Assembly: GCA_038501625.1 (NCBI GenBank)
Contig: JAZAYU010000061.1
Coordinates: 3,026,303 to 3,090,302, forward strand
Reading direction: 5' to 3'
DNA length: 64,000 nucleotides
Origin: Corbicula japonica
Lineage: Eukaryota; Mollusca; Bivalvia; Venerida; Cyrenidae
In this document: in pieces, positions 5,457 through 46,400 of the stretch
Position numbering within the stretch: position 1 is the stretch's first letter
Layout of the letters: each line of letters starts with the position of its first letter
Made by a program: the position numbers and the translations under genes
Notes under the pieces: model-generated
Database searches by the model: none
Seen by the model: only the letters and a program-made list of their open reading frames with translations
Told to the model about the DNA's origin: nothing

Positions 5457-5819
5457 CAGATCATGTTAGAACACATTCATCAACTCATTAAAACCCCTCA
5501 TTAAGACCACCTCGCTAATAAGACCACCATTGTTATGTCCTATTTTACAGTTTTGCACTATTTTCTATCCCTTTATCTCTTTAGTCATATTTTATTAGTC
5601 ACAGCTTCATTGACTAGAAAGATTTAGATAGTGGCTTTATTAAGATGGTGTTCTTAAGGATATGTTTTGTTCACCAGAGGTTGAATGATATTTATTTATA
5701 TCCACATTTAACATATCAAAGTTAAAGTCTTTAATACTGTTATCGTGTAGTTCGGAATACATATAAAATATCTTTCATAGCAGTATAAAAATAAATTAGC
5801 AACGATTAGTACACATAAG
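5457..5819. other. AT-rich spacer without gene
   Basis: Contains the low-complexity phrase cctcattaagaccacctcgc, of a kind often dispersed in introns and intergenic DNA. No open frame of note. Confidence 0.4.
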
Positions 5820-6092
5820 GATGCCTTTTACTTAAATTCTTAAAAAGACTTGGCAAATTTAACATAAATAATAGCCGGCAAGAATGCGAGTTACTCGTTA
5901 AGGTCTTGTAAGGTTCATAAAGTATAATCATCTTAAGAACCATCTATAACTTTTAAAAGCCCTATAATAGTAATTACAAGCGACAAAAGCTTTTTTTCAA
6001 AGGTTTTTAATTACAGTGGCGGGATTGTCTCTTATTAAGTTATGATAAAATAAGTGTAAAAATCATACTTTTGTGGAAGGTACTAAATAATT
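5820..6092 (-). mobile_element. Old Naiad reverse-transcriptase remnant upstream of GPCR copy A
   Basis: Diverged relative of 14080-14390 in the near-full-length Naiad: aaggtcttgtaaggttcat, aagtataatcatcttaagaacc and gtctcttattaagttatga match the RT region. It no longer encodes protein. The same remnant lies at 19225-19436 in front of GPCR copy B, so it was present before the duplication. Confidence 0.7.
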
Positions 6093-11532: not shown

Positions 11533-12084
11533 GATAAACTAAGTGTATAAACTAATTTGTTGTTTTTTTAAATAGTCCCTGACCAGCTCAGCATTCAAGG
11601 TAAATCCGAAGCGCATCACTTTCAGATGTAACCAATAAACTTAATATGTTATTTTTGTTGTAAATAGCATCTCCACTAACAGAGTAAAATAAGAGGTTCT
11701 TAAGCAACAGAGGTAGTGGCTATATTCTTGGAAATGTTTGCTGCAGTGTCGGGATCCAATAGCTCAAAACTAAGCATGCCTTAAATATTCAACAGTTTCC
11801 CCAAGTGATAACTGTAATACTATTCCATTTTCGACTGGTCTTAAATTTCCTGCATATTCTTCAGCATTTCCCCAGAAGTAACCGTTAGTATACAAGTACC
11901 GCTAATGGTCTTTCGGCATGTAAAAGCCTTGTTGTTGCTTTCGAACAAAATGCAACACTAACATTGTTTCAAACATAAATTCCTGGTTTGTAAAACATTA
12001 AAATGCGGTTACCCCAATGGTTCTTTTTTAGTTGTTTGTTGCGTCTTATTTGAATTGACATACTTAATACAGGCTGACAATTTG

Positions 12085-12205
12085 TCAGAAAGGGTATTTG
12101 ATTGATTTTTAGCCCAAGTTCGAATATGGGTCATCTGGGGTCAAAAACTATGTCAATGCCCAAATATGGAAAAACCTTGTGAACACTTTAAATATAGAAA
12201 AGTAA
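12085..12205. repeat. 143-bp satellite S1, left fragment
   Basis: Part of one S1 monomer (agcccaagttcgaatatggg, ggggtcaaaaactatgtca, atatggaaaaaccttgtgaa). It ends where a Naiad copy starts at about 12206. Confidence 0.7.
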
Positions 12206-12437
12206 TATATGCATATCAGTAATCGCCACACTCACAAAACACAGCCTCCCCACGCAGCGAAAAAGAAGAGAGGAAGAGAGAGAGAGAGAATTTTTGTTAT
12301 AAGTATGTCAATTCAAATAGGACGCCACAAATAACTAACGAAAAAGAGAACCTTTGGGGATACCGCCTTGGAACGGTCAGTGGCAAAACAAATTGCCACT
12401 GGGGGTTTAAACCAGGTTCACAAAACAAGTACAAGAG
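12206..12437 (-). mobile_element. 5'-truncated Naiad inserted in satellite S1, with an internal deletion
   Basis: Runs (on +) from atatgcatatcagtaatcgc through gggtttaaaccaggttc, then jumps to acaaaacaagtacaa. About 40 bp present in other copies (tagggtgcaccaacctcaca and the following bases) are missing. Satellite S1 resumes at gaggtaacatcagcccaaat. Confidence 0.8.
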
Positions 12438-12800
12438 GTAACATCAGCCCAAATATCCTTGTTATATGTCAGAAAGGTTATTTGGATGATTTCTAGCCCA
12501 AGTTCATATATGGGTCATCTTAAGTCAAAACTAGGTCACACAGCCCAAATAAAAATTATGGTAAAACCTTGTTAACACTCTAGAGGTAACATTTCTAGCC
12601 CAATTTTCCTGACTGTCAAAAAGGTTGTTAAGATGATTTCTAGCTCAAGTTCGAATATGGTTCATGTGTGTTCAAAAACGAGGTCACTTATCCTAAATAT
12701 GGAAAATTTGTTACCTCTCTAGCATGTCTAGAGGAAATATTTTAAGCCCAAATATCCTGAAAATATGTCAGAAAGGTTGTTAAGATAATTATTAGCTCAA
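12438..12800. repeat. 143-bp satellite S1, block of about 2.5 monomers
   Basis: Monomers carry agcccaagttcgaatatggg, ggtcaaaaactaggtcaca, aacactctagaggtaacat and tatgtcagaaaggttgtt. The block ends with agctcaa at 12794-12800, where the Naiad pair begins. Array resumes at 18354 with agctcaagttc. Confidence 0.8.
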
Positions 12801-12973
12801 AAAAAGCAACTAGGAATCGCCACACTCAAAAAACACAGCCTCCCCACGCAGCGAAAAAGAAGAGAGGAAGATAGAGAGAGCGCATGTTTTATATATGTAT
12901 GTCAATTCAAATAGGACGCCACAAACAATTAATAAACAAGAGAACCTTTGGGGATACCGCCTTGGAACGGTCA

Positions 12974-13000
12974 GTGGCAAAACAAATTGCCACTGGGGGT
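12974..13000 (-). other. Conserved 3'-region hairpin of Naiad
   Basis: On the minus strand cagtggcaa and ttgccactg form a 9-bp perfect stem with a 6-nt loop. The same hairpin is kept in the copies at 12375, 17160 and 22260, so it may be a functional RNA structure. It does not show the AUGA/GA quartet of a SECIS element. Confidence 0.5.
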
Positions 13001-13317
13001 TTAAACCAGGTTCTAGGGTGCACCAACCTCACACTTGCCCCAACAGGTTCTCGTATCACAAAACAAGTACAAATTGTCTTGGTGAAATAACTCCAACCCA
13101 CCCATCAGCTCAACAGTGTTGCATGCAAAAGCATACAAACATATAAACATAAGAATTTAATAGCATTGCAAAGCCAAAGGGCGGGTACTCAATGATCTTA
13201 CCGAGACCAGAGCACCTGGAGTAAAATCAGCAAGAACACGATGACAGGGATAAAAGAAACAAATCGAGCTTTTAGGTTCTTTTAAGAAAAGATTTCCCCA
13301 TAAACTTTCATAAACTC

Positions 13318-16300
13318 TTACACCCCTGCCACCGTCGTGCAACCAAAGAGGTAAGCATAATGATCAACTGTAGATGGGTTAATCACCAGGCCTGCAGAGC
13401 GCTGTAAAATATCATGTTGGTAACCTTTCTTTTTAAATTTACAGATGGTTTTTACGAATAACCGAGAGAAATTAACATCGCCTTTTATCTTCTTAAGTTT
13501 ATAAATTAAATCTCCATAAAAAACTGGCTGTGAAATTCCTTGTTGCAAAAGTGATTTTAAACTGCAGCTGTATTTATGAATTAGATCTGGATATCGGCGA
13601 TAAAACTTGCAAAAGGTTTTCCTAAATTTGTGATACCGATAACCTTGTTTTAAAGTTTTTCTGTTATGCAAAGATTACGTTCATTGAAATCATTCACATC
13701 GTTGCAAGCTCTTGAAAAGCGAACAAGCTGTGAGATATAAACCCCGTAAGAAGTTGCACGAGGAACATCGCCGTCTAGAAACGGAAAATTTACTATATTA
13801 AAATTAAAATCATCTCTTTTATCATAAATTTTAGTAGTGACGTAACCATTTTCGATGGATAGATTTAAATCAAGGAAGTTTGCTTGCTTTTCTGAAGTGT
13901 TCGCTTTGTTAAGCTGTAGTTCTTTAGGATAAATCTTATTAACCAGTGATGGAAAATGGTTATTATCTATATTTAATAAATCATCGAGGTACCTCGAGGT
14001 GCTGTTAAAAGCTGTAATAATATCATCTTGATGTTCGGTAGAAAGAGATAACATGAAATCTCTTTCATAACAGTATAAAAACAGATCAGCAACAAGGGGT
14101 GCACAATTAGTACCCATTGGAATGCCTATTACTTGTTTATAAATAGAGGTACCAAATCTCAAATAAATATTATCCAATAAAAATGTGAGCGCCTGGATAA
14201 GGTCTTGACAGGTCCATGAAGTATAATTATCATAAGAACCATCTGTAAAGAATGCCCTATGTTCATTACAAGCAATAAATGTTTTATTTTCTCTAGCAAA
14301 AGTTTTTTCAATGAGACTGGTTAGCTTGTCTCTTATTAAATTATGAGGGAGAGAAGTATACAAGGTAGAAAAATCATATGTAGACAAACAGAACGCCTGA
14401 AAATTATTTGATTTAAGTTTCTTCAAAACGTCATTTGAATTTTTTATAGACCAAACTAAATTTTTGCCAGTAGTTTCAAAAACTTTTTCGCAATACCTAA
14501 TTACATGTTCTTTTATAGCTGTAAGACAAGATGTTAAGAGCACGGATAACTTTGTTGTAGTACAAGAACTAGAGTTAGCGATAAATCTTGCTTTGTACGG
14601 TGTTTTGTGCATTTTAGGCAACCAATACATAGTAGGTACTTTGTCTTGTTTAGGCTCAACATTGATTCTAAATTTTGTAATTTGTAGAGTGTGTGCAGTA
14701 ACAATATCACTCTCGGATGAAGAAGTCAGTGTATAAGCATTAGTGCTATTAAGCTCTTCAGTTTGAACATTTATATAGTGTATACGTCACACTATAATAA
14801 CATTATTTGAAGCCTTATCAGCAGGTGTTAAAACAAATTTGTTGTGAAAATCTTGAATACCTTTTTTCAAATGACGAAAGTTAAAACGAGGTCGAGGTGG
14901 TAGTAAAGCTATGTTTCTTTTATAGAAGGATATACGAGTGTCAATTATATTGAATATTTGTTTTTTCCAGTTTGAAAGAGCATTAGGCTCAGCATGTTCT
15001 CGTTTACACCATTTATTGCAAAAAGAGTTTAAAGACTCTGCAATTTCTGCACGACAGGTATTAAAGTCGATGTCCGATGGAATTCTGTATTTTGGACCTT
15101 TTGAAATTAAATTGCGGATTCTAAAGTCTTTGATAACATTTAGATCCCCTGTAACGATATGACCGGCAGGTTGATAGCAAAATTTTGAATTAGAACAGTC
15201 TCAAGATAATGGTGTGTTTTCAACAATCTGTAAATCCGAGGTAATTTTGTTGTAATTGAAAATTGTGTTTCTAATAGGCTTGTTATATTTATAACAAACG
15301 ATGGGTGTTTCAGTATTCTTGAAATAATTAGGTATAGCCGATTCAACAGTTTTATCTTTAAATATACTAGGAAGGTCAATAAAATCTATGCCTTTATTTA
15401 AAAATGAAATTTTAAGGAAATGTCTTTGGTGATCAGATTCCAAGTCAATATGTGGTCTTAGAACATGCCGAGTGTAACACTGAGTAAGGCTTGCAACCTC
15501 ATAAAGTGGATGAGTTCTAATAACAATATCATCGGCTTCCTTATCCACTTTTTGTAAACTTGAAATAGAAAGAGAAGCTAAACGCGACAGCATAGCATGT
15601 CTTCCAGAATGTTTTAAAATATTTTGAAGGTCATGAATAGAACAATGAACACGTGATTTTCTTTTGATGTTACCATTAGTCCTTATCCCATGTGACCTCG
15701 ATTTTCGTTTTCGTATTTGAAGCAATCCAAAAATGTCAAAATCAGGGTTTTTTGAAATGTTGCCTTCTTGATAAATATTATCATTTAAACCAAGTGGATA
15801 AGGAATTTGTAGTTTTTTTTATCCAATTATCTTCTGAAACAAGTCTAGCTCTAATTTTAAATGCTCTTGAAGCACTGTTATCAAATATAATTTTTTCCAC
15901 AGGTTGAATACTAACGTGTTTTAAAGTGTGGCCTGATTGTTTAAAATGTTTATATAAATATGTATTGATTTTATTATTGTTTCGTATTTTAGAACAGTGC
16001 TGACTAAAACGTGTTTTTAAAGGGCGTCCCGTCTGTCCTACATATTGAATGCCACAATTTAAAGCGTTTCAAGTTAAAACATAAATTATATTATCTGTTT
16101 GTCAATCAATATCTGAATTAATATTTACTGAAAAAGTTCTTCCATTAACAGTTGATTTTATAGTCGAGCTACATTTTAAAAAACTAGAGAACTTACACCT
16201 CTTTAAATTACACTTGTATATAAAAGGATACGATCTGCGTCTTCCGTCGTTTAGTTTTATAGGCGTGGAAATGTTATATTTTTTAAGAATATGAGATTTG

Positions 16301-16548
16301 ATAGGTGACAATTTTATTTTTAAATTATTTTTAAATAAATGGGTACATTGTGCACTTTGCAAACCGGTCACATTGACGGAAGTAGCCGAAGATAAATTTA
16401 TTGGAGATAAACAAATTGACGGTTGCATGTATTTGAAAGTATTTAATTTAGCCGGAATATGGACAGAAGACGCAGAAGATAGCCTGGGAGTTAAAATGTT
16501 TCCTTTTATTTTAAACGCCATGATTATTTTGTTTGAAAAAAATACCAT
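13318..16548 (-). CDS. Naiad polyprotein: N-terminal GIY-YIG nuclease plus reverse transcriptase, with four in-frame TGA (putative selenocysteine) codons and two frameshifts
   Basis: Start ATG 16548, stop TAA 13318, about 1076 codons once two 1-nt slips are allowed for (T8 run at 15813-15820, lost base near 13650). Residue numbers follow that frame. The GIY-YIG nuclease is at about 150-240: IIYV 154-157, YVG 169-171, R180 and E218, with the zinc-site pattern 160/165/184 plus a later His. A linker with a CxC-type site follows at 449-451. The RT has motif A with D725 (TYDFSTLYTSLP), motif B 807-825 (IGIPMGTNCAPLVADLF), YLDD with D855 and D856, then a thumb-like SYGVYISQLVRFSRACN. Reading is stopped at codons 149, 160, 449 and 587, always by TGA, never TAA or TAG. 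At least three are expected Cys positions in PLEs. The protein would copy the element RNA at a nuclease-made nick. The frameshifts probably make this copy inactive. Confidence 0.82.
14787..14789 (-). other. In-frame TGA, codon 587, in the RT fingers region
   Basis: Context ADKASNNVIIV-TGA-RIHYINV. The preceding residues are the conserved PLE segment before RT motif A. Related PLEs, as I remember them, have Cys (sometimes Trp) here. Confidence 0.6.
15201..15203 (-). other. In-frame TGA, codon 449, first position of the CxC-type motif
   Basis: Context NTPLS-TGA-DCSNSKF. Reading the TGA as Cys or Sec gives C/U-D-C, matching the CxC motif described for the linker of N-terminal-nuclease PLEs. Confidence 0.65.
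16069..16071 (-). other. In-frame TGA, codon 160, first zinc-site cysteine of the nuclease
   Basis: Context IIYVLT-TGA-NALNCGIQYVG. Naiad nucleases place two Cys between the GIY and YIG motifs, and the second (C165) is intact. TGA sits exactly where the first should be. Confidence 0.7.
16102..16104 (-). other. In-frame TGA, codon 149, just before the GIY motif
   Basis: Context NINSDID-TGA-QTDNIIYV. The frame continues without other stops through the nuclease after this codon. Confidence 0.65.
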
Positions 16549-16794
16549 TATATGATTAGCGACCTTCAGTCATATCGCAAGTTTTTAAGTGACGTCACCA
16601 TGCAATACATGACGTAAATGTATGCGCGCTTATGGTTTTTTCTATAAATAGCACGCAGAACAATCTAAAAATATTGACATGTTGAATCACTGATGCCTAA
16701 ATAATAAATGGGACTGTAAATGGTGCTTCCGAGTATATACAAAGGCCCAATTCTGTAACCAGATAATACACAAGAATAATACCATTTAAATATA

Positions 16795-16980
16795 ACAGAA
16801 GGTCGGTGAACATACAACCTTCAATGTGGTATATAAGAGTATTTGGGTGAGTGGGGAGGGGTGTGAAAAATGACTGTAAAATACAATCCCTGAGGGATGA
16901 AACGATAACAGTATTGATTGAAAGTACGGGGAGACGTTTTACGGCCGCCACACAGCACAGACAAAACTACTGTGATTATA
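16795..16980 (-). repeat. Rep-1-like 5' head of the Naiad unit
   Basis: ggtcggtgaacatacaacct with caatgtggtat, then gtacggggagacgttttac and actactgtgatta, resemble two blocks of Rep-1 (compare 27430-27460 and 27800-27850). It abuts the poly-T-type 3' junction of the upstream partner, so it should be the 5' end of this Naiad unit, or a nested Rep-1 copy. Confidence 0.5.
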
Positions 16981-18353
16981 AAAAAGCAACATATGCATAT
17001 CAGGAATCGCCACACTCAAAAAACAGCCTCCCCACGCAGCGAAAAAGAAGAGAGGAAGATAGAGAGAGCGCATGTTTTATATGTGTATGTCAATTCAAAT
17101 AGGACGCCACAAACAATTAATAAACAAGAGAACCTTTGGGGATACCGCCTTGGAACGGTCAGTGGCAAAACAAATTGCCACTGGGGGTTTAAACCAGGTT
17201 CTAGGGTGCACCAACCTCACACTTGCCCCAACAGGTTCTCGTATCACAAAACAAGTACAAATTGTCTTCGTGAAATAACTCCAACCCACCCATCAGCTCA
17301 ACAATGTTGCATGCAAAAGCATACAAACATATAAACATAAGAATTTAATAGCATTGCAAAGCCAAAGGGCGGGTACTCAATGATCTTTCCGAGACCAGAG
17401 CTCCTGGAGTAAAATCAGCAAGAACACGATGACAGGGATAAAAGAAACAAATCGAGCTTTAAGGTTCTTTTAAGAAAAGATTTCCCCTTAAACTTTCATA
17501 AACTCTTACACCCCTGCCACCGTCGTGCAACCAAAGAGGTAAGCATAATGATCAACTGTAGATGGGTTAATCACCAGGCCTGCAGAGCGCTGTAAAATAT
17601 CATGTTGGTAACCTTTCTTTTTAAATTTACAGATGGTTTTTACGAATAACCGAGAGAAATTAACATCGCCTTTTATCTTCTTAAGTTTATAAATTAAATC
17701 TCCATAAAAAAACTGGCTGTGAAATTCCTTGTTGCAGTAGTGATTTTAAACTGCAGCTGTATTTATGAATTAGATCTGGATATCGGCGATAAAACTTGCA
17801 AAAGGTTTTCCTTAATTTGTGATACCGATTACCGTGTTTTAAAAGTTTTTCTGTAATGCAAAGATTACGTCCATTGAAATCCATCACATCGTTGCAAGCT
17901 CTTGAAAAGCGAACAAGCTGTGAGATATAAACCCCGTAAGAAGTTGCACGAGGAACATCGCCGTCTAGAAACGGAAAATTTACTATATTAAAATTAAAAT
18001 CATCTCTTTTATCATAAATTTTAGTAGTGACGTAACCATTTTCGATGGATAGATTGAAATCAAGGAAGTTTGCTTGCTTTTCTGAAGTGTTCGCTTTGTT
18101 AAGCTGTAGTTCTTTAGGATAAATCTTATTAACCAGTGATGGAAAATGGTTATTATCTATATTTAATAAATCATCAAGGTACCTCGAGGTGTTGTTAAAA
18201 GCTGTAATATCATCATCTTGATGTTCGGTAGAAAGAGATAACATGAAATCTCTTTCATAACAGTATAAAAACAGATCAGCAACAAGGGGTGCACAATTAG
18301 TACCCATTGGAATGCCTATTACTTGTTTATAAATAGAGGTACAAAATCTCAAA
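16981..18353 (-). mobile_element. 5'-truncated Naiad partner in head-to-tail tandem
   Basis: Very close in sequence to the full-length unit. It starts upstream at 18353 within the RT and ends with the same 3' junction aaaaagcaac (on +) at 16981 as the full unit has at 12801. The flanking S1 satellite overlaps by agctcaa on the outer sides of the pair. This is the pseudo-LTR arrangement known for PLEs. Confidence 0.8.
17515..18352 (-). pseudogene. C-terminal half of the Naiad RT (5'-truncated)
   Basis: Open from 18352 through motif B (IGIPMGTNCAPLVADLF), RYLDDLLNI and the thumb segment, and on through CITEKLLKHGNRYHK, so it does not have the 1-nt loss seen near 13650 in the full unit. An extra A in the run at 17704-17709 breaks the frame after QPVF, and the original stop lies near 17515. 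It lacks the nuclease and motif A, so it cannot act alone. Confidence 0.75.
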
Positions 18354-18785
18354 GCTCAAGTTCAAATATTGGTTATATGGGGTCAAAAAGTAGGTCACTC
18401 AGCCTGAATATGGAAAAACTCTTTTAGCACTCTAGAGGTAACATTTTCAGCCTAAATATCCTGAAAAGATATAAGAAAGGTTGTTTCGATTATTTCTAGC
18501 CAAAGTTCAAATGTGGGTCATGTGGGGTCAAAAACAAGGTCACAGAGCCCTAACAAGGAAAAACCTTGTTTACACTCTAGAGGTAGTTTTCAGCCCAAAT
18601 GTTCAGGAAATATGTCAGAAAGGTTGTTTCGCTGATTTTAGCCCAATTTTGAATAAGGGTACTATGGGGTCAAAAACTAGGTCACAGAACCCAAATATGG
18701 AAAAACCTTGTTAACACTTTAGAGGTTACATGTCAGGCCAAATATCCTGAAAATTTGTAAAAATTGTTGTTATGAGGCAAACAAG
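18354..18785. repeat. 143-bp satellite S1, three monomers
   Basis: Monomers start at 18354, 18499 and 18641 (periods 145 and 142), each with ggggtcaaaaa and a variant of aaaaccttgtt. It continues the array broken at 12800. Confidence 0.85.
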
Positions 18786-19224: not shown

Positions 19225-19436
19225 TAAATCTAACATAAGCAATAGTGATGAAAAAGGGTCGTAAAGGTATTGACAAATCCATAAATTAAAGTTATTGTAA
19301 GAACCATCTTCAACTATTAAAAGCTCTATAGTCATACATAAGCGATAAAAGTGTTCTTTTCTTTAAACGTTTTCAATGAGACTGATGAGCTTGACTAACA
19401 AATTATGAGAATATTAAGTAAAAAAGGAGAATTTTC
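19225..19436 (-). mobile_element. Old Naiad RT remnant upstream of GPCR copy B
   Basis: Counterpart of 5820-6092. It keeps gacaaatccataaattaaag, aagaaccatctt and caatgagactgatgagcttg, which line up with 14210-14340 of the near-full-length Naiad. Not coding. Confidence 0.7.
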
Positions 19437-22089: not shown

Positions 22090-22918
22090 GGTGAAATATG
22101 CATATCAGGAATCGCCACATTCAGAAAAAACAGCCTCCCCACACAGTCAAGAAGAAGAGAGGGGAAGAGAGCATGGTTAATAAAATAATCAGTTTAAAAA
22201 AAGACACCACTAACAATAAACAAAAATGAGAACCCGAGGGGTTACCGCCTTGGAACGGTCAGTGGCAAATCAAATTGCCACTGGGGGTTTAAACCAGGTT
22301 TTAGGGTGCACCAACCTCACACTTGCCCCAACAGGTTCTCATATCACAAAACAAGTACAAATTGTCTTGGTGAAAAGACTCCAACCCACTTATCTGCTTA
22401 ACAATATTGCATGCAAAAGCACACAAACATATAAAACATAAGAAGCTAAGAGCATTGCAAAGCCAAAAGGGGTACTCAATGATCTTACCGAGACCAGAGC
22501 TCCTGGAGTAAAATCAGCAAGAACACGATGACAGGGATAAAAGAAACAAATCGAGTTTCTAGGTTCTTTTAAGAAAAGATTTCCCCAATAACCTTCATAA
22601 ACTCTTAAACCCCTGCCACCGTCGTGCAACCAAAGAGGTCAGCATAATGATCAACTGTAGAAGGGTTAATCACCAGGCCTGCAGAGCGCTGTAAAATATC
22701 ATGTTGGTAACCTTTCTTTTTAAATTTACAGATGGTTTTTACGAATAACCGGGAGAAATTAACACTGCCTTTAATCTTTTTAAGTTTATAAATTAAATCT
22801 CCATAAAAAACTGGTTGTGAAATACTTTGTTGCAAAAGTGATTTTAAACTGCATTTGTATTTATGAATTAAATCTGGGTATCGGCGATAAAACTTGCAAA
22901 AGGTTTTCCTTAATTTGT
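22090..22918 (-). mobile_element. 5'-truncated Naiad inserted in satellite S2
   Basis: Begins (on +) with aatatgcatatcaggaatcg and reaches into the RT C-terminal coding part (22605-22918). S2 is interrupted at ccatgacaa and resumes as aggcggtgtgttgcg. The left flank aaaaaggtg and right flank aaggcggtg suggest a target duplication of about 8-9 bp. Confidence 0.85.
22605..22918 (-). pseudogene. Naiad RT C-terminal fragment
   Basis: Reads LHKLRKTFCKFYRRYPDLIHK and ends GCTTVAGV stop, identical in layout to the end of the full-length frame (13318-13671). No catalytic motif remains. Confidence 0.75.
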
Positions 22919-23075
22919 GAAGGCGGTGTGTTGCGTACATTACCCATGACTGTTAGTCCAAGGTCAATGTCACAGTTACTAAAACTTGAATTTACTTGTT
23001 CGGGCTATAACTTCTTTATGAATGAAGGGATTTCAAAATAACTTGGCACAAATGTTCACTATGACATTGCATTGC
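22919..23075. repeat. 143-bp satellite S2, continuation
   Basis: aggcggtgtgttgcgtacat through cttctttatgaatgaaggga. It completes the array split by the Naiad copy. Confidence 0.75.
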
Positions 23076-25659: not shown

Positions 25660-27085
25660 AAAATTAATGCGTGGAACAGCCACATTCAGACAACACAGCG
25701 CTCTCTCCTACATACCAAGTAGAAAGGAAAAAGTAGCATGTGTTTACACTGTGACCAGTATCAAAAGAACTCCGAAAACAACGGAAATTGGAAGCCGAGA
25801 AACTACCACTGTGACACTGGAACAGTCAGTGGCAAAACAGTTTGACGGTTGGGGTTTAAAACTAAGTTCTATGGTGCAATAACATCTACAGGTCCACTTG
25901 TTTCTCATTATTATGAACAAACAAGCACAATATGCCCTGATGAATACACTCCTACCCACCTGTCAATTTGAGAACGCATAAACATAACAAACATTTTAAA
26001 AAGAAGACGTTATGAAGGAATTGTCAAGCGAAAAAGAAAGGTACATAAAATCAATTTCCTTACAGCTGAAGATCTTTTAAAAATTTAAGATAATCCAAAG
26101 CCTAGAGTTCAATGCAATGTAGTACACAGGTTAATCACTAAGTTTGCATATCGCTGTAGAATATCGTGTCCGTAGCCTTTCTTTTTTTTGAATTAAGATG
26201 TTTTTACGAACAACGTCGAGAAATTAATATCTCATTTTATTTTCTTAAGTTTATAAATTAAAAATTAAAAAAAAATAAAAATCGTTTTTAACAATGAGAA
26301 TGCTATTAATTCTTTTGTAATAAAAACTTAATAATGTAAAGAAAGACCACGACTAGATCAGTTCTAGTCAATTCTATATAGTGTATAGTATTTTTACAAG
26401 ACTCATCTGTCAAAGAACTCTATATTCATTACAAAAGATACCAGTTCTATTTTCGGTTTAGTTTTCTCTTGGGAACGTTTTTTTCAGTGAGGTTGATAAA
26501 AGAGTGTCTTGTTAAATTATATGTAAGTGAACTGTACAATGCAAAAAATCACAAGTGAACAAAAAGAACGCCTGAACATTATTTAAGCTTTTTTCAAACG
26601 TCTTTCGAGTTCTTAAAACGAGTTTCGCCAGAGTTTTCAAAAACCTTAGCACAATAAATATTTAAATTTTGTACGACCTGTAAGACAAGATTGCAATCAA
26701 ATGCGCGAAAAGCCAAACACGAATCATAGCCTTCCCACACAGCAAAAATGCAGATAGGAAAGAAAACACGTGTTTATCCATATCACCCTCCTTCTGATAA
26801 TTTAATTCGTCTATAAGAATTTGCACTGTTAAGGTCTTCTACAGTATATCCTACTTTTAAACGACAAAAGTGGAGGTTGAGGAGGTATTAAAGCTAGTTT
26901 TATAATAAATCAAGTTCTATTTTTTTTATTTCTAAAAACCGGTAGAGGTGATTCAGGACTATTTCTACAATTAGGTTCAATTCAACCGTTTTATCTTTTT
27001 ATTTAATATTTGAAAATCTATGATGATCAGATGGCATGTCATTGACTTGTATGAGAACAAGCCTGCCCAGCGTTATTTCAAATAG
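25660..27085 (-). mobile_element. Old, nearly full-span Naiad copy, heavily decayed
   Basis: The order of blocks follows the near-full-length element: 3' end (25667-25980), RT C-terminus (26120-26260), fingers and palm region (26390-26690, with tgtaagacaagattgcaatc), then a second 3'-type start at about 26704 (agccttcccacacagcaaaaatg), and sequence matching 14880-15430 (26800-27060). Indels and stops are everywhere. It is too decayed to tell whether TGA codons were present at the cysteine sites. Confidence 0.65.
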
Positions 27086-30700: not shown

Positions 30701-32184
30701 ACGGTTTTAAATAATGTAACTAAGTAAACAATCGTGCTGATCCTGCAATATTTTCATACTTGAGTTGTTCGATCGCTTCCAATATCCTGCATGCAACATC
30801 TTACGACGTCTGCATTACAAAATATATTCGCTTTTAAACTAGAACCTGTACTGAGATGTATCATTTGAAATCAGGGAACGCAATATAGCTATTGAAAGAA
30901 AGGTATTGATACCAAATATAATAAATGTTTTACCACCAATTCACAGATAAAATCCAAACCTAAAATGGCAGTTTAAAAGCCAATACCGCGAAAACGTATA
31001 TCTCAACGGGTTTGTTATGCAAATTTGATTTCAAAACTGAAGAAAATAAATGGAAATACCAACCTCTCATCTATTTTGGAAACAAGATTTTTATATTAAA
31101 AAAGAAAATATAACACGTTATTCTACAACGCTTTGAATGCATACAGTAGTGATAATCCAGTATCTATATTTGATCACTTTGCTCACCTCTCTGGCTTCAC
31201 GACGTTTGGTTGGACCGTAAGAGTTTATGAACATTTCTAGGGCAATTTTGAGAACATATGACACTTGGGCACTTACGAGATCTTGTCCGGGACCAATTAG
31301 TTTGCATTCATACCGCCTTTTAGAGAACAGAAGCGCGTGGGTTTCTTCGAGCTCGTATCATGATACTAGTGATGTTTTATTAGATATTTGTGGTTTATAT
31401 AAAACATTCCCGCCATCGCGATCATAATGAGGCGGTGTCTGGAAGCAAGTTTTCCTGACATGGAATAACGTTTATAACTTGTTTTAACGCGATTATAGAA
31501 ACAGACACCTCTTTGATAATTTTCTCGCGAGAACGTTGTCGAGATTCTGGAATCCTGTAATCTGACGGTCATTCACAGAATGACGGGATGACAAGAGCTT
31601 TCTTTATAAAACCATCCCACTTAGTTACGCGCGATGTCTTACTTTTATATACCGAAAAAAGTTTATTAAAATCGCATGCCGGTAATTTTATTGTATTTCA
31701 ACTTAAATTAAACTAAGCTTATCCGCTTGAATTTCGAAAAGATAACGTATAGAATCAAAACGTGACATTAAACGAAGTTTAAATATGAGTTTACAGATTT
31801 AACATTTTCATTAGTAAATTCAATAGACCAAACTCAGTCAAGTGTCGTCAATAAAGAGCTGACCTTAAATTATAACATTTCAGATAATTTATCATCAATT
31901 AATAATTCATGCTTATTTTTATGTTTTAAAATGGCTATTGTAAGTATGTAACATTTGTGGTTCCTCAAATGTCAGGAATTGTGCTACATGTATATTGCAC
32001 GTCGCGCCTTACCACCGAAGCATTCTTGGCGTTATAACAAATTACTTACCGCATATGTATCACACACGTTACGTTACGCCGTTATAATGTAAAAGCATTT
32101 TGTCGTAATGTCGTTATGTAACACTACGGGTAAAACTTCTTATACTGTCATGACATTTCATACTGTCTTCTATATGATATTGCC
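30701..32184. other. Non-coding stretch, no repeat or exon recognised
   Basis: Frames up to 68 codons at 31227-31572 run on both strands over the same bases and carry no motif. Confidence 0.4.
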
Positions 32185-37261: not shown

Positions 37262-37850
37262 TATTCAAATAAGACATCACAAACAATAAACGAAAATGGG
37301 AACCCTTGGGGTTACCGCCTTGGAACGGTCAGTGTTAAATAATCTGCCACTTGGGGTTTAAACCAGGTTCTAGGGTGCACCAACCTCACACTTGCTTCAA
37401 CAGGTTCTCATATCAACAAACAAGTACAAGTTGTCTTGATGAAATAACTCCAACTCACCCATCATCTAGACAATGTTGCATACAAAAGCACACAAACATA
37501 AAACATAAGAATATAATAGCATTGAAAAAGCCAAAGGGACGTGTACTAAATGATCTTACCGAGACCATGGACGCACATTAGCAAGAACACGAGGACAGGG
37601 ATAAAAGAAAAAAATCGAGCTTCTAGGTTCTTTAAAGAAAACATTTCCCCATAAACCTTCATAAACTTTCAAACCCCTGCCACCATCGTGCAACCAAAGA
37701 GGTAAGCATAATGATCAACAGTAGATGGTTAATCACCAGGCCTGCAGAGCGCTGTAGAATATCTGTAAATTCAAAAAAAAAAGGTTACCAACATATTATT
37801 CTAAAGCGCTCTACAGGCCTGGACAAGTACAAGACAAAAATACACCCACT
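37262..37850 (-). mobile_element. 5'-truncated Naiad with an inverted 5' end
   Basis: Lacks the outermost 3' end but reads attcaaataagacatcacaa through the 3' region and into the RT C-terminus (aatcaccaggcctgcagagc at about 37731). Then at 37770-37833 the same stretch appears reversed (ggttaccaacatattattct, gcgctctacaggcctgg). Such 5' inversions arise in target-primed reverse transcription. Confidence 0.75.
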
Positions 37851-45399: not shown

Positions 45400-46400
45400 A
45401 TTGTTTGTAAACAAGAGCGATGACTTTCTTGATCTTATCCTTATATTGAACATGGATAAATATAAAATATATGAGAAAAGAGATGATTTAAATTTAAATA
45501 AAGTAAATTTTCCGTTTTCATACGAGGATGTTCCTCGTGCAATATCTTACGGGGTATTTCACAGCTTGTTCGCTTTTCTAAGAGCTTGCAATAACGTTCA
45601 TGATTTCAATCTTTTGAAACAAGGTTATCGGTATCACAAAGTAAAGAAAACCTTTTGCATGTTTCATCGCCGATACCCAGTTTTAATTAAAAATACAGGT
45701 GTAGTTTCAACAAGGAATTTCACAGAAAGTTTGTTTAAGGAGATTTAATTTATAAACTGAAGAAAATAAAAGGCAATGTTAATTTCTACCGGTTATTCTT
45801 AAAAACCATCTGTAAATTCAAAGGGAAAGGTTACCAACATAATTTTCTACAGCTCTCTGCATGCCAAGTGATGAACCTATCCACAAATGATCATTATGAT
45901 GATCTATTGTGTTGTTCAAAGGTGGCAGGGGTTTAAGAGTTTATGACGGTTTATTGTGAAATATTGTAAAAGAACCTAAAAGCTCGTTTCTTTTATCCCG
46001 TCATCGTGGTCTTGCTGATTTGACTCCAGTTGCTCTGGTCTCCGTAAGATCATTGCGTACCCGCACCTTGGTTTTGTAATGCTGTAAGCTTTTTATGTTT
46101 TATTATTATGTTTGTGTGCTTTTGCATGCAACATTGTTGAGCTGATGGGTGGGTTGGAGTTATTTCTACAAAATAACCTTTACATGTTTGTTCATATGAA
46201 AACCAGTTTGGACATGTGTAAGGTTGGTGCACCAAAGAACCTGGTTTAAACCCCCAGTGGCAAATTTTTTGGCCACTGACCGTTCAAAGGCGTTAACCCC
46301 TCAGGTTCTCTTTTTCGTTACTTGTTTTTTGTGTCTGTTTTGAAACTGATTATTGTATAACCATGCTCTCTACTCCCCTCTACTTTTGGCTGTGTGAACC
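45400..46400 (+). mobile_element. 5'-truncated Naiad on the plus strand, diverged
   Basis: Starts in the RT thumb coding part, continues through the 3' region (aaacccccagtggcaaattt, ccgttcaaaggcgttaaccc) and ends near gctctctactcccctctac with ggctgtgtgaac. It is more diverged than the pair at 12801-18353. Confidence 0.8.
45401..45748 (+). pseudogene. Naiad RT thumb and C-terminal fragment
   Basis: Contains IYEKRDDLNLNKVNFPF, EDVPRAISYGVF and a diverged FLRACNNV, GYRYHK and FHRRYP, parallel to 13650-13850 of the near-full-length element. Catalytic motifs are absent. Confidence 0.75.

Follow-up and report, generated by a model that had tools for sequence, protein, structure and literature searches.

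Naiad-type Penelope-like retrotransposons carry an N-terminal GIY-YIG nuclease, a CxC linker and a telomerase-related reverse transcriptase (RT); their copies stand head to tail as pseudo-LTRs, and they lack a hammerhead ribozyme. Naiads of spiders and of clams have reportedly evolved several selenocysteines independently, as Craig, Yushenova, Rodriguez and Arkhipova are said to have found in 2021. In established selenoprotein biology, a SECIS hairpin recruits SBP2 and eEFSec. The host plasma protein selenoprotein P is a familiar case in which several UGAs of one mRNA are decoded through a 3' SECIS.

We analyzed a 64,000-nucleotide stretch of DNA from the bivalve Corbicula japonica (the window; positions below are counted along it). 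It holds a Naiad-type element with a 1,076-codon frame, whose four TGAs are very probably read as selenocysteine by means of a predicted SECIS at the stop codon. The four TGAs are constant among genomic copies and fall on cysteine columns; the frame is otherwise open and under selection beyond each of them, and a hairpin with SECIS features accompanies the stop codon.

With the selenocysteine Naiads reported from clams and spiders, the element shares the N-terminal GIY-YIG nuclease, CxC linker, RT, tandem copies and several UGAs at Cys positions; a SECIS, reported for those Naiads, is predicted here. It may be one of the elements of Craig and colleagues or a close relative, the likeness being one of overall features. 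Since Naiads with several selenocysteines have reportedly been described before, the novelty here is a new member and the evidence for it. Like selenoprotein P, the element has several UGAs per mRNA and a predicted SECIS at the 3' end; unlike it, the element encodes the nuclease and RT of a mobile element, and in each unit a single hairpin was found, at the stop codon. Cys-only Naiad-like proteins (such as P0063, P0121 and P0122) share its domain order and the four columns and are 37-41% identical over the shared part, but these database proteins have Cys at all four sites and no in-frame stop where the element has TGA. A full-text literature search for Naiad or Penelope-like elements combined with selenocysteine found no paper in the collection searched. 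Excerpts from the reference lists of PMC11167929 and PMC12910113 include it (Craig et al. 2021, Mol Biol Evol 38:5005-20), and an excerpt of PMC10941475 merely lists Naiad as a class of Penelope-like elements.

The element and its domain layout

Self-comparison of the window delimited a complete Penelope-like retrotransposon unit at 12812..17001 on the minus strand, the strand of all features of the element given below. Upstream of it lies a 5'-truncated copy, head to tail (17002..18353, minus strand). This copy repeats 12812-14163 with 98.1% identity over 1,354 columns, which sets the length of the unit at 4,190 bp. Head-to-tail copies also occur elsewhere in the genome, with spacings of 4,190 on C1093 and of 4,900 and 4,186 on C1288. 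A 142-bp tandem repeat occupies 18358-18753 and has relatives, 72-83% identical, on the other flank at 12080-12800; because such repeats lie on both flanks, the element appears to sit inside a minisatellite array. Further 3' ends belonging to this element family, older and sharing 80-90% identity with the unit, lie elsewhere in the window at 22107-22920 and 37263-37763 (minus strand) and 45463-46344 (plus strand). Decayed Naiad-like fragments at 5630-5944, 19264-19428, 26088-26656 and 30772-31210 show 30-66% protein identity, most with several stops.

The coding region falls into three blocks. Block 1 (15814..16548, codons 1-245) encodes the N-terminal part and the nuclease; Pfam places the GIY-YIG domain PF01541 at its residues 154-203 (15940..16089; E 5e-6, 27.1 bits against a cut-off of 22.6). 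Block 2 (13653..15818, up to about codon 965) encodes the CxC linker and the RT, which aligns with homologues, and block 3 (13318..13662) encodes the C-terminus and ends in the TAA stop codon at 13320-13318. The nuclease is N-terminal to the RT, and the order GIY-YIG nuclease, CxC linker, telomerase-like RT is continuous in intact copies.

The original prediction described an uninterrupted frame of about 1,076 codons from 16548 to 13318, broken only by four TGAs. The four in-frame TGAs, and the absence of TAA and TAG from the three homologous blocks, were borne out; the single frame was not. In the window copy, the three blocks lie in different frames, two frameshifts having been overlooked near 15,814-15,820 and near 13,650-13,662. 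Continued straight, the frame of block 1 runs into TGA TAA near 15,780 and that of block 2 into a TAA at 13652-13650. The stretch 16548-13318 still amounts to 1,077 codons because the two frameshifts compensate. The product had also been called a polyprotein, a loose term for what is one multidomain protein.

In the CxC motif, 45/46 homologues have Cys at column 449 and 46/46 at column 451; the element has TGA at the first and Cys at the second. Rfam listed no hammerhead ribozyme family at E<=1 in 12300-18400, nor at the gathering threshold in the window. The protein chosen for structural modelling was the all-Cys homologue P0121 rather than the window protein; the model had a mean pLDDT of 80.9, and its 14 best PDB matches by Foldseek were telomerase RTs, with TM-scores of 0.25-0.34 by query length and identities of 10-12%. 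Telomerase has no nuclease, whereas the element has one of the GIY-YIG type. As far as a model of a homologue can tell, these telomerase matches fit Penelope-like RTs. Judged from its sequence, the element's domain order, CxC motif, tandem structure and lack of a hammerhead match fit a Naiad-type Penelope-like retrotransposon.

Four TGA codons are kept across genomic copies

The assembly searched comprises 1.07 Gb in 1,630 contigs and includes the window. With block 2 as the query, 62 places were scored, 98-100% identical, and 58 of them had exactly two TGAs and were otherwise stop-free within block 2. The search passes U as Cys and is therefore not biased toward TGA. A second search for diverged families in the same genome used P0003, a homologue with Cys at both 449 and 587. 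It returned the same family again, at many of the places of the block 2 search; of the 54 places scored, 50 contained exactly two TGAs and were otherwise stop-free.

We compared 50 of the 62 places, the window copy (L012) included. Fourteen of these 50 copies, representing 12 distinct ORFs, are open from ATG to TAA except for TGA at codons 149, 160, 449 and 587; the frame of such intact copies has 1,076 codons, and their start ATG is codon 1 or codon 10. Codon cells were counted as readable where local identity to copy L017 was at least 80%. TGA was found in 44/45 readable copies at codon 149 (16102..16104), in 44/44 at codon 160 (16069..16071), in 50/50 at codon 449 (15201..15203) and in 49/50 at codon 587 (14787..14789): 187 of 189 readable cells, both exceptions being TAA. 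At all other positions of the 50 copies, 50,752 codon cells contained seven in-frame stops (four TAA, three TGA). When the identity filter was lifted, a few copies with diverged or truncated 5' ends differed at 149 and 160, including one TGT at 160. The copies are closely related and, because several sit in the same arrays, are not independent.

Such a count across other genomic copies had been suggested in the original prediction, which also held that random decay should give TAA and TAG as well. The outcome favors that prediction: at the four sites the other copies keep TGA instead of showing Cys or Trp codons or a mixture of stops.

All four TGAs lie on conserved cysteine columns

Protein homologues of block 2 numbered 636 at E<=0.001 among 7,994 candidates scored. 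We aligned the intact L017 frame with 46 of the 158 listed homologues, picked by length. Columns 149, 160, 449 and 587 are Cys in 36/38, 37/39, 45/46 and 44/46 homologues, respectively. The non-Cys residues among the 46 homologues are Trp (2, 1, 1 and 2 at the four columns) and a single Ala. Codon 160 is the first Cys of the CX2-4C pair that immediately precedes the GIY-YIG core, and codon 449 is the first Cys of the CxC; codon 587 follows PADKA-NNV in the RT. That the last three are usual Cys sites had been anticipated, and the alignment agrees; codon 149, left unassigned at the time, proved to be a further conserved Cys column.

Only nine columns with at least 15 homologues have at least 90% Cys, and all four TGAs fall there. 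If four codons were drawn at random from the 1,076, the chance of all hitting such columns would, by simple arithmetic, be about 2e-9. On this alignment, chance placement of the TGAs on Cys columns is excluded.

Among the matches listed, 14 of the 58 homologues that cover site 587 have Trp there (P0001, P0002 and P0010 included). The simplest account of Trp in database homologues is that gene calling translated TGA as Trp, and proteins with Trp at this site offer a possible route to more such elements. In 42 of the 120 matches listed, the protein starts past the fourth UGA site, by 31 residues at most. A search for the DNA of relatives in public genome contigs gave three loci; site 587 is covered in one of them, as Cys, and all three lack a usable 3' end. 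In viral contigs and phages, none was found.

Naiad-like RT fragments also turned up in records of a Bathymodiolus symbiont and in Candidatus Thioglobus metagenome-assembled genomes (MAGs; L001-L003), and the homologue P0066 lies on a contig labelled as a bivalve symbiont MAG. The simplest account of the RT fragments in bacterial MAGs L001-L003 is contamination of the symbiont assemblies by host DNA.

Shared changes are constrained beyond each UGA

We measured pN/pS from single-base codon changes in the 50 copies, separating shared changes (found in at least three copies) from private ones; two-copy and multi-base changes were dropped. For shared changes, pN/pS was 0.18 in codons 1-148 (11 N, 20 S) and, in the segments following the four UGAs, 0.11 in codons 150-159 (1 N, 3 S), 0.13 in codons 161-448 (18 N, 43 S), 0.11 in codons 450-586 (1 N, 3 S) and 0.07 in codons 588-1076 (5 N, 24 S); the values for 150-159 and 450-586 rest on only four shared changes each. 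The corresponding private values were 0.89, 0.64, 0.67, 0.53 and 0.61. Copies had been ranked on likeness to block 2, which biases codons 249-965; codons 1-248 and 966-1076 lie outside the ranking. Because shared pN/pS is low and private pN/pS high, the lineages that produced the copies were under purifying selection at the protein level past the UGAs, while single copies drift. The copies of one genome provide direct evidence for selection on the four UGAs and on the frame beyond them.

A hairpin with SECIS features overlaps the stop codon

No SECIS element had been spotted by eye when the locus was originally described. Folding now predicts a SECIS-like hairpin at 13329-13244 that overlaps and follows the stop codon, with an Rfam score below threshold. 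In the main copy, the predicted hairpin (13244..13329) has its AUGA at 13311-13308; its counterpart in the upstream copy spans 17432..17517. Rfam matched SECIS_1 in the upstream copy at 17507-17440, with 25.2 bits against a gathering threshold of 35 and an E value of 0.15 over all families. No SECIS was listed for the main copy's hairpin stretch at E<=1 (12300-18400) or for nine fetched loci up to E 5, and the whole window gave nothing at gathering. Rfam matches to snoU85 and Flavo-1 scored far below gathering and were dismissed as chance.

Unconstrained folding of 88 bases gave one hairpin in each copy, at -25.1 kcal/mol in the main and -24.7 kcal/mol in the upstream copy; 3 of 500 and 5 of 500 shuffles, respectively, folded equally well. 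Both copies have the same layout: the UAA stop forms part of the basal helix; next, UUUAUGAA and CGAUUUGU face each other across an internal loop, and then come helix II and an apex with an unpaired GAAA followed by a small apical stem. The unconstrained folds thus contain an AUGA:GA core and an AAA bulge; excerpts of PMC8704476 describe SECIS elements as having a stem with AUGA:GA and a loop with AAR. When the borders were moved, the main copy took a different fold, and in 80-base windows some hairpin variants favored another fold.

We compared 54 copies of the region, representing 21 variants of the hairpin. Eighteen of the 21 retain 28 or 29 of the 29 pairs. A compensatory change is seen at one pair, where a lone variant has A-U and the other 20 have U-A; a single pair in a single variant is too thin for covariation to serve as proof. 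The variant with 19 pairs is the old fragment at 45.9-46.1 kb, where part of the hairpin has been lost; by its letters, it is without the GA side. Together, the folds, the motifs and the pairing kept among variants are suggestive of a SECIS, short of proof.

Discussion

The genomic copies, the Cys columns and the hairpin all support the multi-selenocysteine interpretation put forward in the original prediction, in which insertion itself is the inferred step. The predicted SECIS would recruit SBP2 and eEFSec, and the UGAs at 149, 160, 449 and 587 would be decoded as selenocysteine. We infer that host SBP2 and eEFSec load the hairpin, with selenocysteine inserted at each of the four UGAs. A ribosome that terminated at 149 or 160 would make no nuclease, and one that terminated at 449 or 587 would not complete the RT. 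A stop at any UGA would thus mean no complete enzyme, since the first two come before the nuclease or at its start and the last falls within the RT. Both nuclease and RT, and hence transposition, would then be gated by the selenium supply of the host, on which mobility would depend. With the stop codon placed in the basal helix, terminating ribosomes may open the hairpin.

These features could form a more elaborate scheme: a selenium checkpoint before each working part (the nuclease Cys pair, the linker and the RT fingers) and one SECIS that holds the stop codon and is opened by every terminating ribosome, tuning transposition by both selenium and translation rate. We offer this scheme as speculation and consider it rather unlikely in full.

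Could the UGAs instead be leaky stops, read through as Trp, Cys or another residue without selenocysteine and setting the ratio of short to long products? UGA is generally the leakiest stop, and the sites do separate nuclease, linker and RT. However, two UGAs only 11 codons apart, before or at the start of the nuclease, are ill suited to ratio control; plain readthrough would not need all four UGAs on Cys columns, and a SECIS-like hairpin is present. We consider such readthrough very improbable. Less probable still is a variant nuclear code in which the host reads UGA as sense throughout, for example as Cys or Trp. The Trp at site 587 in database homologues, most simply TGA read as Trp, speaks for it, but a common sense UGA should be scattered through the frame, where the intact copies have exactly four, and its remaining 31 Cys residues are encoded by TGC or TGT. 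Ordinary decay of dead copies, to which the two frameshifts of the window copy might point, is ruled out as the origin of the TGAs, and we give it next to no credence: 14 of 50 copies share these four TGAs and are otherwise stop-free, the sites are almost invariably TGA, all lie on Cys columns, and the shared changes past each are constrained.

Decoding of the four UGAs as selenocysteine is thus the reading we prefer. Annotation misses such elements, as the listed homologues often begin after the fourth UGA site or show Trp there. If the selenocysteine reading is true, both enzymes of an abundant mobile element would be tied to the selenocysteine machinery of its host, and selenium supply would act on transposition.
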